Shown: piece by piece, positions 7,007 to 11,736 of the stretch
Layout: each line of letters opens with the position of its first letter
Position numbering within the stretch: the first letter of the stretch is position 1
Source of the DNA: Zhihengliuella salsuginis
GTDB taxonomy: Bacteria; Actinomycetota; Actinomycetes; Actinomycetales; Micrococcaceae
Length of the DNA stretch: 64,000 bases
Assembly (NCBI RefSeq): GCF_014651715.1
Contig: NZ_BMXK01000001.1
Span: forward strand, 62,001 to 126,000
Reading direction: 5' to 3'
The notes under the pieces: generated by a model
Database searches by the model: none
What the model saw: the letters and a program-made list of their open reading frames with translations, nothing else
What the model was told of the DNA's origin: nothing
Position numbers and translations under genes: made by a program

Positions 7007-7213
7007 AGGCGCCGCGGCTCACGCGGCGGCAGACCCGTCGAACTCGACGCCGCCGACTACCGGAACCGGAACGTCATCGAGCGCGGCTACTGCCGCATCA
7101 AGCAATGGCGAGGCCTCGCCACCCGCTACGACAAACACGCCGTGATCTACCGCGCCGCCATCGTCCTCAACACCGTCATCGCCTGGACCAAAACATTGTC
7201 AGACACACCCTAG
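7007..7213 (+). pseudogene. IS5-family transposase, C-terminal fragment
   Basis: The frame reads RRRGSRGGRP, then DYRNRNVIERGYCRIKQWRG, then LATRYDKHAVIYRAAIVL, the well-conserved C-terminal part of IS5-type transposases including the catalytic E of the DDE triad (the E in NVIER). It ends at TAG 7211-7213, whose TA is the duplicated target. The first two acidic residues and the core lie in the missing part. Confidence 0.8.
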
Positions 7214-7659
7214 GCGCCGATGCGGCGGCCGCTCCACTCCGGGACGGCCGCCGGCAGCGCCTCGATCCGCTCCGCGATCGCGGCGGGGAAGGGCGCGGCC
7301 CCGCTCCCGTCCACGTGCAGTGCCATGATCTCCTCGGTGGCCACGAGCTCGCCTCCGACGTGCATCTCGTAGGCCAGGTGCAGCTTCTTCGCACCCGAGG
7401 CGACCACGCGGGGCGTCACCTGCAGCGTCGCTCCGCGCGGCACCTCGCGCAGGTACCGCACATGGGCCTCCACGGTGTAGAGGGAGCAGCCGGTCGCCGC
7501 GCGGTAGTCGGCGTCGAGCCCCAGGTCCACCATGATCCGGTCCGTGGTGAACCCGAAGACCAGGACGTAGTAGGCCTCCGACAGGTGGCCGTTGTAGTCG
7601 ATCCACTCCTCGGCGACCTCGGTCGTGTACGGCCTCAGCGCCGCATCCGCGGCGCTCAC
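7210..7659 (-). CDS. cdhB: Thioesterase, probable betainyl-CoA thioesterase
   Basis: Hotdog-fold acyl-CoA thioesterase, 149 aa. The 4HBT-type active-site region reads WIDYNGHLSEAYYVLVF near residues 18-34. It is last in a three-gene operon with the two other enzymes of aerobic carnitine breakdown, so the expected reaction is betainyl-CoA to glycine betaine plus CoA. GTG 7659 overlaps the preceding stop in GTGA, showing tight coupling. Its TAG stop uses the TA duplicated by the IS-ended element and the element's terminal base. Fold certain, substrate inferred from context. Confidence 0.8.
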   Translation of the reverse strand: MSAADAALRPYTTEVAEEWIDYNGHLSEAYYVLVFGFTTDRIMVDLGLDADYRAATGCSLYTVEAHVRYLREVPRGATLQVTPRVVASGAKKLHLAYEMHVGGELVATEEIMALHVDGSGAAPFPAAIAERIEALPAAVPEWSGRRIGA

Positions 7660-8630
7660 GGCTGCGGCACCGGGGTGGCCGCGCGGAGCCCCGCCGTGAG
7701 CCTGCGCAGCGCCACGATGCCTGCGTCGCGTTCGGCGACCAGGTCGGCGATCGTGTGCTTTCCGGTGGCCTCCTCGCACCCGGCGACGACGGCGTCGCGC
7801 AGCTCGCGGGTGAGCTCCGGCGCGGTCAGCCGGGTCCACGGCGACTTCAGCGACGGGCCGAAGTGGTCCAGCATGTGGCCCATGCCGCCGGGGCCGCCGG
7901 CGAGGTGGAACGTGAGCATCGGCCCCTGGAACGGCCAGCGCAGCCCCGGGCCGTCGGTGATGGAGCGGTCGATCTGCTCGACCGTCGCCTCGCCGTTCTC
8001 GACCATGTGCAGCGCCTCCCGCCACAGGGCCTCCTGCAGGCGGTTCGCGATGAAGCCGGGGACCTCGCGGTCCATGTGGATCACCGACTTGCCGATCCGC
8101 GTGTAGAAGTCGGCGGCCCAGGCCACCGCCGCGGCGGCCGTCCGGTCGCCGCCGACGACCTCGACCAGCGGGATCAGGTACGGCGGGTTGAAGGGGTGCC
8201 CGACGACGAAGCGCTCCGGGTGCCCGGCGACGTCCACCGCCATCTCCGTCATGCTGTACCCCGACGTCGAGGAGCCGATGACGACGCCGGGTGCGCACAC
8301 GGCGTCGAGGTCTGCGAAGAGCCGGCGCTTGAGGGCCAGATCCTCTGGGGCGGACTCCTGGACGAAGTCCACGCCGTCCACCGCCTCGGCCAGGTCCGTG
8401 TGCACGCTCCAGGCTTCCTTGTCGGCGCCGTCGAGCATGTCGAGCTCGGCCAGGGCCGGCCACGCGGCGTCGATCAGCTGCGCGAGGCGGACGCCGGCGT
8501 CTGCGGCCGGGTCCCACACCTTGACGCGGTAGCCGCGGGCGAGGAAGTAGCCGGCCCAGCCCCCGCCGATGGTGCCGGCGCCGATGCAGGCGACGGTGCG
8601 GACGTCGTCGATTGCGGGGTGCTGGTTCAC
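7656..8630 (-). CDS. cdhA: L-carnitine 3-dehydrogenase
   Basis: NAD-dependent dehydrogenase of the 3-hydroxyacyl-CoA dehydrogenase family, 324 aa, the length of known carnitine dehydrogenases. The Rossmann motif [13 protein letters not shown] is near residue 18, the catalytic His lies in [19 protein letters not shown], and the helical C-terminal domain starts near [16 protein letters not shown]. It would oxidise L-carnitine to 3-dehydrocarnitine, the substrate of the enzyme encoded just upstream. GTG 8630 overlaps that gene's stop in GTGA. The neighbours (cleavage enzyme and thioesterase) make the carnitine assignment much stronger than sequence alone. Confidence 0.88.
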
Positions 8631-9535
8631 AGTCGTACTCCTTCGTGCGGCACCTGGACGTCGAGCTTGAGGATCTCGCGCGCCTCGTCGGGGGTGGCGA
8701 CCTCGGCGCCGAGGTCCTCGATGATGGACACGGCCCGCTCGGTCAGGCCCGCGTTCGTGGCCTTGACCCCCTTGGAGAGGTAGAGGTTGTCCTCGAGGCC
8801 CACGCGGGCGTGCCCGCCGGCCAGCACGGACTGCGCGACCCACGGCAGCTGGTTGCGGCCGATCGAGAAGGACGTGAACTCGGCGCCGGCGGGGAGCATG
8901 TTCACCATGGCCTGCAGCAGCGCCGGATCGGCGGGCGCGCCGTAGGGGATGCCCATGCACAGCTGGTAGAGGGGCGGCGGGTCGATCAGGCCCTCCTCGA
9001 CGAGCACGTTCGCGAACCAGAGGTTTCCGGTGTCGAAGATCTCCAGCTCGGGGCGCACCCCGAGGGTCTGGATCCGCTTCGATCCCTCGCGCAGCATGTC
9101 CGGGGTCGAGACGTAGAGGTTGGAGCCGTCGCCGAAGTTGAGCGATCCGCAGTCCAGGGTGCAGATCTCCGGCAGCAGCTCCTCGACGTGGGGCAGGCGG
9201 TCGAGCGCGTTGACCAGGTCGGTGCCCGGCATCTGCGTGGTCGGGTCCTGCGGGTCGATGACCAGGTCGCCGCCCATGCCGGCCGTCAGGTTGATGACCG
9301 GGTCGACGTCGGACTCCCGGATCAGCCGGACTGCCTCGCGGTAGTGGGCGACCTCGCGCGAGGACTGCTTCGTCTCGAGGTCGCGCACGTGGATGTGCAC
9401 GACAGAGGCGCCGGCGCGGGCCGCGGCGATGGCGTCCGCGGCGATCTCCTCCGGGGTGACGGGCACGTGCTCGCTCTTGCCGGCGGTGTCCCCCGCGCCC
9501 GTGAGGGCGCAGGTGAGGATGACTTTGCGATTCAT
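8627..9535 (-). CDS. cdhC: 3-dehydrocarnitine cleavage enzyme (BKACE family)
   Basis: Beta-keto acid cleavage enzyme (DUF849), 302 aa, a zinc-dependent TIM barrel. The metal-binding pair is in VVHIHVRD near residue 47, and the late motif [11 protein letters not shown] is typical. In carnitine operons this enzyme condenses 3-dehydrocarnitine with acetyl-CoA and splits it into betainyl-CoA and acetoacetate. It is the first gene of the operon, followed by the dehydrogenase and thioesterase with 4-base overlaps. The start ATG 9535 follows the site GACAGGGAG. Family certain; dehydrocarnitine as substrate follows from the neighbours. Confidence 0.88.
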
Positions 9536-9576
9536 CTTGACTCCCTGTCAGGTGGTGTCGTGGTCGGTTCCGGGGT

Positions 9577-10434
9577 CTATCCGGCGCGGTTGAGGACCGC
9601 GCGGTCGAGGTAGTCGGAGATCCGCCGGCGCAGTGTCTTCGCGTCGAGGATTCCGGTCATGAGCTTGATGCCGAGGCCGTCGAGCAGGGAGGTCAGCTCG
9701 TCCGTCATCGCGTCCGCGTCGCCCGGCCGGAACCGGCCCTGCTCCTGCCCCTCGGCGATGGTCGAGCGGACCGTGGCCGACCAGCGGCGGTAGCTGCTGA
9801 CGTAGTCCTCGTTGCCCGGCTCCTCGAGGGCCAGGCGGCTCCACGTCTGCAGCCAGATGGACCACTCCAGCCGCGCGGTCCGCCCGATGGGCGACTGCAG
9901 CTCCAGCAGGCGGGTCAGCCGGTCCCGGGGATCGGCGATGTCCGACAGCCACGCGATCTGGCGGTCGAACGCCAGCTTCACCGAGTAGCTCAGCGCCGCC
10001 GAGAACAGCTCCTGTTTGCCCGCGAAGTAGTAGTGCACGCTGGCGCTGGAGACGCCGGCCTCCTCGGCGATGTCGGCGATCCGCACCGCGTCGAAGCCCC
10101 GGCTCGCGAACAGCGTCCAGGCCGCTTCCACGACCATGCGCCGCCGCATCGCCACCTCGCCGGACGCCGGCGGGGCGGCCGCCGCGGCGGGCCGGGGCGG
10201 CGTCGCCGACACGTGGGACTGCTCGCCGAGCAGCCACTTGACGGTCACGCCGGTCGCGGTGGCGAGGGCCAGCAGCTCCTCCGCGTTGAACCTCCGCTGC
10301 CCGGAGAGGGACTTCGACAGCTTCGTCTCGTCGAGGCCCATCTGCGCGGCGACGCTGCGCTGGGAGTGGCCGCCCGAGTGGATGGCCTCCTTGGCGCGTT
10401 CGCCGACGCGCGGTGGTCCGGATATCTCGCTCAT
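9577..10434 (-). CDS. XRE-TetR fusion transcriptional regulator
   Basis: Regulator of 285 aa with two DNA-binding domains. Residues about 8-75 form an XRE/Cro-type helix-turn-helix (QRSVAAQMGLDETKLSKSLS). After a proline/alanine linker comes a full TetR protein: its HTH (IADIAEEAGVSSASVHYYF) and an all-helical ligand domain to the end. It lies just upstream of the carnitine operon on the same strand and is its likely repressor. ATG 10434 is chosen because the longer start at 10470 would put the candidate operator inside the gene. Ordinary TetR proteins are about 200 aa, so the extra domain is real and unusual. Confidence 0.85.
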   Translation of the reverse strand: MSEISGPPRVGERAKEAIHSGGHSQRSVAAQMGLDETKLSKSLSGQRRFNAEELLALATATGVTVKWLLGEQSHVSATPPRPAAAAAPPASGEVAMRRRMVVEAAWTLFASRGFDAVRIADIAEEAGVSSASVHYYFAGKQELFSAALSYSVKLAFDRQIAWLSDIADPRDRLTRLLELQSPIGRTARLEWSIWLQTWSRLALEEPGNEDYVSSYRRWSATVRSTIAEGQEQGRFRPGDADAMTDELTSLLDGLGIKLMTGILDAKTLRRRISDYLDRAVLNRAG

Positions 10435-10454
10435 GCGGGAAACGCTACGCGCAA

Positions 10455-10508
10455 CTTGCGTATACCGCAAGGCGTCCTGATGATGAGTCAGTCAAACTTG
10501 CGCAAGTT
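10455..10508. promoter_or_regulatory. Paired CTTGCG palindromes, candidate operators of the XRE-TetR regulator
   Basis: Two inverted repeats share the half-site CTTGCG: CTTGCG-N5-CGCAAG at 10455-10471 and the perfect 14-bp palindrome AACTTGCGCAAGTT at 10495-10508. Both lie directly upstream of the regulator start at 10434, and no other palindrome of this kind is visible nearby. The two sites differ in half-site spacing, which may fit binding by a two-domain protein. Autoregulation is inferred. Confidence 0.6.
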
Positions 10509-10595: not shown

Positions 10596-11180
10596 ATGGC
10601 AGCCATGGTCTCCGAGCAGATTCCGCAGCAGGGCCCCGGCCCGGGATCCGGCCCGCCGCCTGCCGGCCGGAGCATGCCCGAGCCCCCGGCCCAGGCGCCG
10701 CAGGTTCCGGGCGCCACACACGTCTCCGAGGCCGCCGTCGCGCGCGTCGCCGCCGCGGCCGCGCGCGCGATCGACGGCGTCCACTCCCTCGGCACCGGAG
10801 CCGGGCGCGCGCTCGGTGCGCTGCGCGGGCGGGTCTCTGGAGCGCAGCACGAATCCACGGTCGGTGTCAGCGCGGAAGTCGGGCGCGAGGAGGTCGCCGT
10901 CGACCTCACCCTCATCGCCGACTACGGGCGCCCCCTGCACGCCATCGCCGCCGACGTCCGGACCGCCGTCTTCGCCTCCGTCGAGGAGCTCACCGGCCTG
11001 CGCGTCATCGAGGTCAACATCGAGATCGGCGACATCCACGTCCCCACCGCGAGCGGCTCCAGCCCGGCGACAGGGGCCATCCCGGCCGTGCCCGCAGCGG
11101 CCCGGCCGCCGGCACCCGGAACGCCGCCGGCCGGCGCTGAACCCGCGGACCCGACAACACCAGATGGAGAACGCGCATGA
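10596..11180 (+). CDS. Asp23/Gls24 family envelope stress protein
   Basis: Protein of 194 aa with a proline-rich N-terminal 40 residues, an Asp23/Gls24 domain (about 40-150; VSEAAVARVAAAAARAIDGV, then DLTLIADYGRPLHAIAADVR and TGLRVIEVNIEIGDI) and another proline/alanine-rich tail. Family members coat the inner face of the membrane through membrane-anchored partners, and two such partners are encoded downstream. First of five same-strand genes; ATG 10596 follows GAAAGG, with ATG 10605 as alternative. Its end overlaps the next start in ATGA. Confidence 0.88.
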   Translation: MAAMVSEQIPQQGPGPGSGPPPAGRSMPEPPAQAPQVPGATHVSEAAVARVAAAAARAIDGVHSLGTGAGRALGALRGRVSGAQHESTVGVSAEVGREEVAVDLTLIADYGRPLHAIAADVRTAVFASVEELTGLRVIEVNIEIGDIHVPTASGSSPATGAIPAVPAAARPPAPGTPPAGAEPADPTTPDGERA

Positions 11181-11383: not shown

Positions 11384-11736
11384 CCGCCCCCTCCGACCTG
11401 CCCGGCCACACGCGCGTCAGCACCCAGGCGCTCGCCAGCGCGGCCCGGGTCATCGCCGCCGACCTCTTCGCCGTGCCCGCGGCCCGCATCCACGTGGACC
11501 TCGACGACGACTACGGGAACCTCTCTATCGCCCTGAGCCTCCCGCTGCCGCTGGCGCCGCCCGCAACGACGCCCGCAGCGAGCGTGTGGGACCGCGCGGT
11601 CACCGTGCGCGACGACGTGCGCCTCCAGTTCGTGCGCCTCACGGGATCGCAGGTCAGCCGGGTCGACGTACGCGTGACCGGCGTCGTCCTGGAGCACTCC
11701 GGTGACGGGCGGCCGGCCGGGCGGAGGGTCGCATGA
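11380..11736 (+). CDS. Divergent Asp23-like protein
   Basis: Protein of 118 aa starting at GTG 11380, within the GTGA overlap. It has no membrane segment. The layout - a helix (RVSTQALASAARVIAADLF), paired strands (IHVDLDDDYGNLSIALSLPL), a second helix (VTVRDDVRLQFVRLTG) and a last strand (VSRVDVRVTGVVLE) - follows the Asp23/Gls24 fold, but the sequence is too diverged to be sure. Its place inside the Asp23 operon supports the call. It may be a second, specialised partner of the first gene. Confidence 0.65.
   Translation: MTAPSDLPGHTRVSTQALASAARVIAADLFAVPAARIHVDLDDDYGNLSIALSLPLPLAPPATTPAASVWDRAVTVRDDVRLQFVRLTGSQVSRVDVRVTGVVLEHSGDGRPAGRRVA

Follow-up and report, generated by a model that had tools for sequence, protein, structure and literature searches.

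A candidate composite operator for an XRE-TetR fusion regulator of a probable carnitine-to-betaine operon in Zhihengliuella salsuginis

We analyzed a 64,000-nucleotide stretch of the Zhihengliuella salsuginis genome (assembly GCF_014651715.1, contig NZ_BMXK01000001.1, positions 62,001 to 126,000; hereafter the window) that carries a regulator gene with two different DNA-binding domains. The regulator is followed, in order, by genes for a beta-keto acid cleavage enzyme (BKACE), a probable carnitine dehydrogenase (CDH), and a thioesterase, and its promoter is overlaid by two arrangements of repeated half-sites, here termed O1 and O2 (Table 1).

Table 1 Features of the regulator locus, in window coordinates
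Feature	Positions	Strand	Basis
4HBT_2 thioesterase; GTG start overlaps CDH stop (by eye)	7210..7659	-	Domain match, loci
Probable L-carnitine dehydrogenase (CDH); GTG start overlaps BKACE stop (by eye)	7656..8630	-	Pfam, NCBIfam, loci
BKACE (beta-keto acid cleavage enzyme), 41 nt after regulator	8627..9535	-	Pfam; locus comparison
XRE-TetR fusion regulator, 285 aa, ATG start at 10434	9577..10434	-	ORF translation, Pfam, homologues
BetI-type TetR ligand/dimer domain, residues 169-279	9598..9930	-	TetR_C_6 (Pfam); PDB matches
TetR_N DNA-binding domain, residues 102-147	9994..10131	-	Pfam
Linker, residues about 69-95, Ala/Pro-rich	10150..10230	-	Structure model and homologue alignment
XRE-type HTH domain, residues 19-68	10231..10380	-	HTH_31 / HTH_3 (Pfam)
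-10 element TAGCGT, 7 nt before start codon	10442..10447	-	Promoter scoring; transcript start inferred
O2: CTTGCG-N5-CGCAAG, proposed XRE-pair site over -35 and spacer	10455..10471		Pattern searches, promoter comparison
-35 element TTGCGG, 17-bp spacer	10465..10470	-	Promoter scoring
O1, proposed composite operator: CGCAA-N6-CTGA-N7-TCAG-N6-TTGCG	10466..10502		Promoter comparison, pattern searches
CTGATGATGAGTCAG: CTGA-N7-TCAG, proposed TetR site inside O1	10477..10491		Promoter comparison
AACTTGCGCAAGTT: proposed upstream XRE half-site, both orientations overlapped	10495..10508		Letter search, promoter comparison

The original prediction described an XRE domain fused to a complete TetR protein, and the length of the reading frame and its Pfam matches bear this out. 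The XRE part matched HTH_31 (residues 19 to 64, 4e-09) and HTH_3 (residues 21 to 68, 6e-07), and the remainder matched TetR_N (4e-16) and the BetI-type TetR_C_6 (2e-17), all above cut-off, placing the domains in the XRE (HTH_3/HTH_31) and TetR families. A structure model of mediocre quality (mean pLDDT, 72.8; pTM, 0.49) served solely to set domain limits, judge the disorder of the linker, and find PDB matches; a fold search with it, which hardly probed the XRE part, matched TetR structures (Z up to 19.9, 188 aligned, 3.6 Å). Predicted confidence was below 50 at linker residues 72 to 89, and the linker varies from 18 to 37 residues across homologues. The best NCBIfam model was BetI, yet both BetI equivalog models scored below their cut-offs (TIGR03384, 64.8 versus 201.3 bits; NF001978, 53.3 versus 118 bits), and by these scores the protein is BetI-like rather than BetI.

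The neighboring genes agree with the predicted tie to a betaine-forming operon, of the carnitine-to-betaine type. In this pathway, carnitine is converted to dehydrocarnitine, cleavage with acetyl-CoA gives betainyl-CoA, and hydrolysis releases glycine betaine; the operon probably turns carnitine into betaine by this route. The CDH belongs to the 3-hydroxyacyl-CoA-dehydrogenase family, and its best NCBIfam model is L-carnitine dehydrogenase, at 323 bits against a cut-off of 414. Among the loci of named genomes, the regulator is followed by BKACE in all 41, with CDH present in 39 (the two misses, L057 and L059, are short contigs) and the thioesterase in 38 (missing also in L045). Approached from the enzyme, BKACE was found at E ≤ 1e-120 in 8 of 197 genomes of the class, and the regulator adjoins it in all eight. 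On the other side of the regulator in the window, the divergent neighbor (10596 to 11180, + strand) encodes an Asp23-family envelope protein, and beyond it, at 11733, lies a gene for a protein weakly like DUF6286; both are apparently unrelated to carnitine. The divergent neighbor is a BCCT transporter in six genomes of one genus (family f24, loci L078 to L083), and a BCCT gene lies near the regulator in at least 9 of 77 loci, part of which were viewed with about 1.5 kb of flank.

When named genomes were scanned with the regulator, 41 of 85 candidate stretches proved to be relatives, mostly from Brevibacterium, with others from Arthrobacter, Glutamicibacter, Paeniglutamicibacter, Pseudarthrobacter, Tomitella, further Micrococcaceae, and one Propionibacteriales metagenome-assembled genome (MAG). 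Because all 41 match the regulator across both domains and have the same BKACE gene next in the operon, the fusion is real, and the agreement of every locus found over XRE and TetR rules out sequencing error as its source. Splitting of the gene in relatives, the outcome that had been named as counting against the fusion, was seen only at L073 and L027. The break at L073 points to the assembly, since the neighboring BKACE and CDH are broken too; L027 has an internal stop and matches partially.

The description of the fusion as rare holds at the phylum scale. In the phylum sample (up to eight candidates scored per genome), 4 of 296 genomes, among them the own one, matched at E ≤ 1e-30, and one of the other three matched with the TetR part only. 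The fusion is nonetheless widespread within Brevibacterium and also occurs in several families of actinobacteria. In the class sample (up to six candidates scored per genome), 28 of 394 genomes matched at E ≤ 1e-25, and 18 besides the own genome span XRE and TetR; in the family sample, 23 of 149 matched at E ≤ 1e-30, four of them with the TetR part (L028 to L031). One of these four genomes (G142) also has a second XRE-TetR fusion (L032) that is 38% identical to the regulator and is found without the TTGCG promoter architecture described below, which suggests that such fusions have paralogues with other targets. The closest copies of the regulator are in Brevibacterium (about 61 to 66%) and in one same-family genome, G095 (60%); other same-family genomes matching across both domains reach 44 to 52%. 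Since four congeners in the family sample gave no match at E ≤ 1e-30 and the closest copies lie in Brevibacterium and G095, the operon (7210 to 10434) may have been acquired by horizontal transfer.

Promoters were located with a rule that demanded a TA resembling a -10 and favored TTGCGA in scoring the -35. The rule gave a start for 75 of 77 loci (L025 and L073 received none). The -10, of TA type, stands six to eight nt ahead of the start, and the -35, at 17 to 18 bp, resembles TTGCG/TTGCC; this regularity is partly built in. The regulator transcript is probably leaderless. Removal of eight near-duplicates left 67 promoters for comparison, in which those of one genus, or otherwise related, are not independent; the paralogue L032, L027, and the XRE-less L028 to L031 were left out.

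The two CTTGCG sites that had been predicted upstream of the gene, one with five-base and one with zero spacing, are present letter for letter: the first, O2, reads CTTGCG-TATAC-CGCAAG, and the second is AACTTGCGCAAGTT. Comparison of promoters shows that they differ in conservation. In 51 of the 67 promoters, TTGCx is followed at a distance of exactly 5 bp by a CGCAA arm in which at least four of five positions match, whereas nine other offsets yielded such an arm in two promoters at most; the first arm of O2, like the right arm of O1 in the window's family, is partly circular because the -35 was located by a score favoring TTGCGA. Across the own 3.37-Mb genome, YTTGCS-N5-CGCAA was found at O2 (both strands) and in one other place, which sets O2 apart from a chance match. 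By this comparison, O2 is the conserved member of the two CTTGCG sites. In seven genomes of one genus (family f26, L088 to L094), O2 often reads TTGAG-N5-CTCAA, and their regulators have R in place of K at XRE residue 41 and other residues at pocket positions 190 and 196; a changed specificity of both heads is possible in this group.

The zero-spaced palindrome, in contrast, was found in 1 of 49 promoters (window's family, Brevibacterium, Tomitella, and the Propionibacteriales MAG), namely, that of the window, and can be ruled out as a conserved second site. One half of it is kept elsewhere: 47 of the 49 promoters have TTGCG or CGCAA, without mismatch, 40 to 22 bp ahead of the -35, whereas 200 shuffles gave 3.6 on average and 9 at most. 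This upstream arm is TTGCG in L045, L047, L056, L057, and L058 and CGCAA in most others, and such tolerance of either orientation would fit a head on a loose tether.

Between the upstream half-site and the -35 lies CTGA-N7-TCAG, a probable TetR site that the original prediction, with its zero-spaced second site type, had overlooked. It usually ends 5 to 7 bp before the -35 and measures 15 bp in the window's family and Brevibacterium; elsewhere the palindrome is 18 to 20 bp long (CTGACT-N8-AGTCAG), lies 4 to 135 bp from the -35, and is often flanked by TTGCG and CGCA(A). With two or fewer mismatches, the palindrome occurs in 39 of the 67 promoters, versus 0.85 expected from shuffles. In the window, palindrome and half-sites form the symmetrical O1, CGCAA-N6-CTGATGATGAGTCAG-N6-TTGCG, which has one half-site in common with O2; L089 and L092, from other families, read as nested palindromes. 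In all six loci of the f24 genus (L078 to L083), O1 lies between the regulator and the divergent BCCT transporter, and by eye it seems to include the transporter's -35 (TTGATT/TTGATA), 17 bp before a TAG-type -10.

Genome-wide searches returned few composite sites away from the regulator. The pattern CTGA-N7-TCAG-N3..9-TTGCG was found in the own genome at the regulator promoter (both strands) and once more (L114), a match that we rejected as a strong site on account of its position in a coding region, LexA by eye. Among 33 fusion genomes, TTGCG-N2..6-TGACT-N8-AGTCA gave nine matches at seven places, all just upstream of the regulator, and the reversed pattern gave none; this set left out G000, G004, G016, G035, and G142, which also match into the XRE part. 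The 16 members of this set that belong to the own order gave no match to the pattern, in keeping with the 15-bp length of their palindrome. By these searches, the regulon seems to comprise a single operon, together with the transporter gene where the two adjoin.

To assign these elements to the two heads, we compared the fusions with 13 TetR relatives lacking the XRE domain (L115, a match to the TetR part only, is not among them). An exact TTGCG or CGCAA lies within 14 bp of the best palindrome in 56 of 67 fusions versus none of the 13 XRE-less TetRs, a comparison in which the right arm in the window's family is the -35 itself; for the left arm alone, the counts are 53 of 67 versus 0 of 13. 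A palindrome with three or fewer mismatches was present in only eight of the controls, and none of those eight is flanked. Palindromes resembling TGACTGATGCATCAGTCA or CTGACGCGTCAG occur in several XRE-less relatives and are similar to the published BetI box, ATTGACG*CGTCAAT (PMC12442346). Since the XRE-less relatives are without TTGCG flanks, we assign TTGCG to the XRE head and the TGAC palindrome to the TetR head, an assignment that the comparison supports well. The proposal of one spacing per domain fares poorly here, as both arrangements use the TTGCG/CGCAA half-site that tracks XRE.

The probable ligand is suggested by a solved homologue from Saccharomonospora viridis. PDB entry 4ICH matches regulator residues 10 to 283 over chain residues 31 to 309 (E, 4e-69; phmmer), and further entries from this organism present the TetR part of a homologue, by their titles with choline in 4KWA, benzamidine in 4JNN, and N,N-dimethylmethanamine in 4NEL. 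By analogy with these ligands, the regulator would bind a quaternary amine of the pathway. Residues W194, W198, Y215, and W218 are conserved without exception in the 67 fusions and almost without exception in the TetR-only set, and they may form an aromatic cage.

Our preferred reading, to which we assign a probability of roughly 0.6, is that the protein is an autorepressor of the carnitine-to-betaine operon that acts on a composite operator until a quaternary amine of the pathway releases it. A TetR-type dimer carrying two flexibly tethered XRE heads would offer four heads, of two kinds, for DNA binding. Its TetR core would grip CTGA-N7-TCAG while the XRE heads read TTGCG half-sites on both sides of it, and the XRE pair could also close on TTGCG-N5-CGCAA over the -35 and spacer of the probably leaderless promoter. 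We infer repression from the placement of O2 on the -35 and spacer; without ligand, TetR and XRE contacts would jointly block RNA polymerase, and entry of carnitine, dehydrocarnitine, or betaine into the TetR pocket would loosen the TetR grip and allow transcription. Several observations sit poorly with this reading. Sixteen of 67 promoters, most of them from Brevibacterium, have a weak second O2 arm or none; L077 has O2 and no clear O1; in families f24 and f26, O1 lies 31 to 135 bp upstream of the regulator's -35 rather than on it; and one TetR geometry does not explain the difference in palindrome length. A more elaborate version is tentative: one dimer would hold four half-sites of two unrelated sequences, elastic XRE tethers would tolerate flipped or shifted half-sites, and ligand would free only the TetR pair, leaving the XRE heads on the 5-bp-spaced site, so that the protein would switch between two bound states without leaving the DNA.

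It is rather unlikely, in our estimate, that the XRE domain dimerizes or binds a partner instead of DNA; the TTGCG elements would then belong to the promoter or to another factor, and TetR and its palindrome would regulate alone. That one TTGCG is the -35 itself, that XRE-less TetR relatives manage with a palindrome alone, and that some Brevibacterium have lost the second O2 arm would all suit such an arrangement. However, the half-sites track the XRE domain across fusions and controls, and the upstream half-site is kept in nearly all of the 49 promoters despite lying outside the core promoter. Furthermore, none of the 67 fusions varies at XRE residues K38, L39, S40, L43, G45, or R47, and the N5 pattern is confined in the own genome to the regulator promoter and one other place.

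We consider it improbable that the regulator is an activator, or that it is dual, repressing without ligand and activating with it, as Pseudomonas CdhR reportedly does on its own gene: O2 on the -35 and spacer is in a blocking position, BetI-type TetRs are typically repressors, and O1 in the six loci of the f24 genus may, by eye, cover the promoter of the divergent transporter. What speaks for activation is the distant O1 of the f24 and f26 loci, where an activator could sit, and the precedent of CdhR, which PMC5806209 presents as an activator of the AraC type that, when ligand is absent, holds down basal expression as well. Very improbable, finally, is the original division of labor, in which XRE reads the 5-bp-spaced CTTGCG arrangement and TetR the zero-spaced one. 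Both arrangements are indeed present in the window, but the zero-spaced form is private to it, TetR-only relatives have TGAC-type palindromes, without CTTGCG, and the BetI box is ATTGACG*CGTCAAT (PMC12442346).

Proteins that join two unlike DNA-binding heads usually remain annotation curiosities; here, the XRE-less relatives allow each element of the operator to be matched to one head. Whether two heads in one repressor act together can thereby be tested with a single protein and a handful of short DNA probes. The analysis also proposes a target operon and an operator for the solved structures 4ICH and 4KWA, and, judged from the sequences compared, the system is a likely carnitine-responsive switch for actinobacteria.

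Among known systems, the closest is 4ICH, which has XRE and TetR in one chain in the same domain order, with homology across both and a TetR part about 42% identical to that of the regulator by structural alignment. Its sequence has 311 residues and the solved chain covers residues 94 to 286, so that the XRE head is not seen, consistent with a head that is mobile or lost. This entry and 4KWA, 4JNN, and 4NEL come from structural genomics; we found no paper, operator, or target description for them in the open-access literature, nor any description there of the operator or function of an XRE-TetR regulator. BetI, the choline-responsive TetR repressor, resembles the regulator in its TetR_C_6 BetI-type domain and quaternary-amine theme, and the BetI box (PMC12442346) resembles the TGAC-type palindromes of the XRE-less relatives. 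Unlike BetI, the regulator has an extra XRE head, is tied to a carnitine rather than a choline operon, and falls below the NCBIfam BetI cut-off. CdhR of Pseudomonas aeruginosa controls carnitine-to-betaine catabolism (PMC5806209), the pathway type to which the regulator is tied; it is a divergently encoded member of the AraC/GATase-1-like family, unrelated to the regulator as a protein. The Xre-RES toxin-antitoxin regulator of Pseudomonas putida, as outlined in PMC12204516, also places more than one dimeric DNA-binding unit on a higher-order operator, but it does so by repeating the same XRE domain in a complex, whereas the regulator joins two unlike domains in one chain. The domain families and the existence of the fusion in the PDB were already known.
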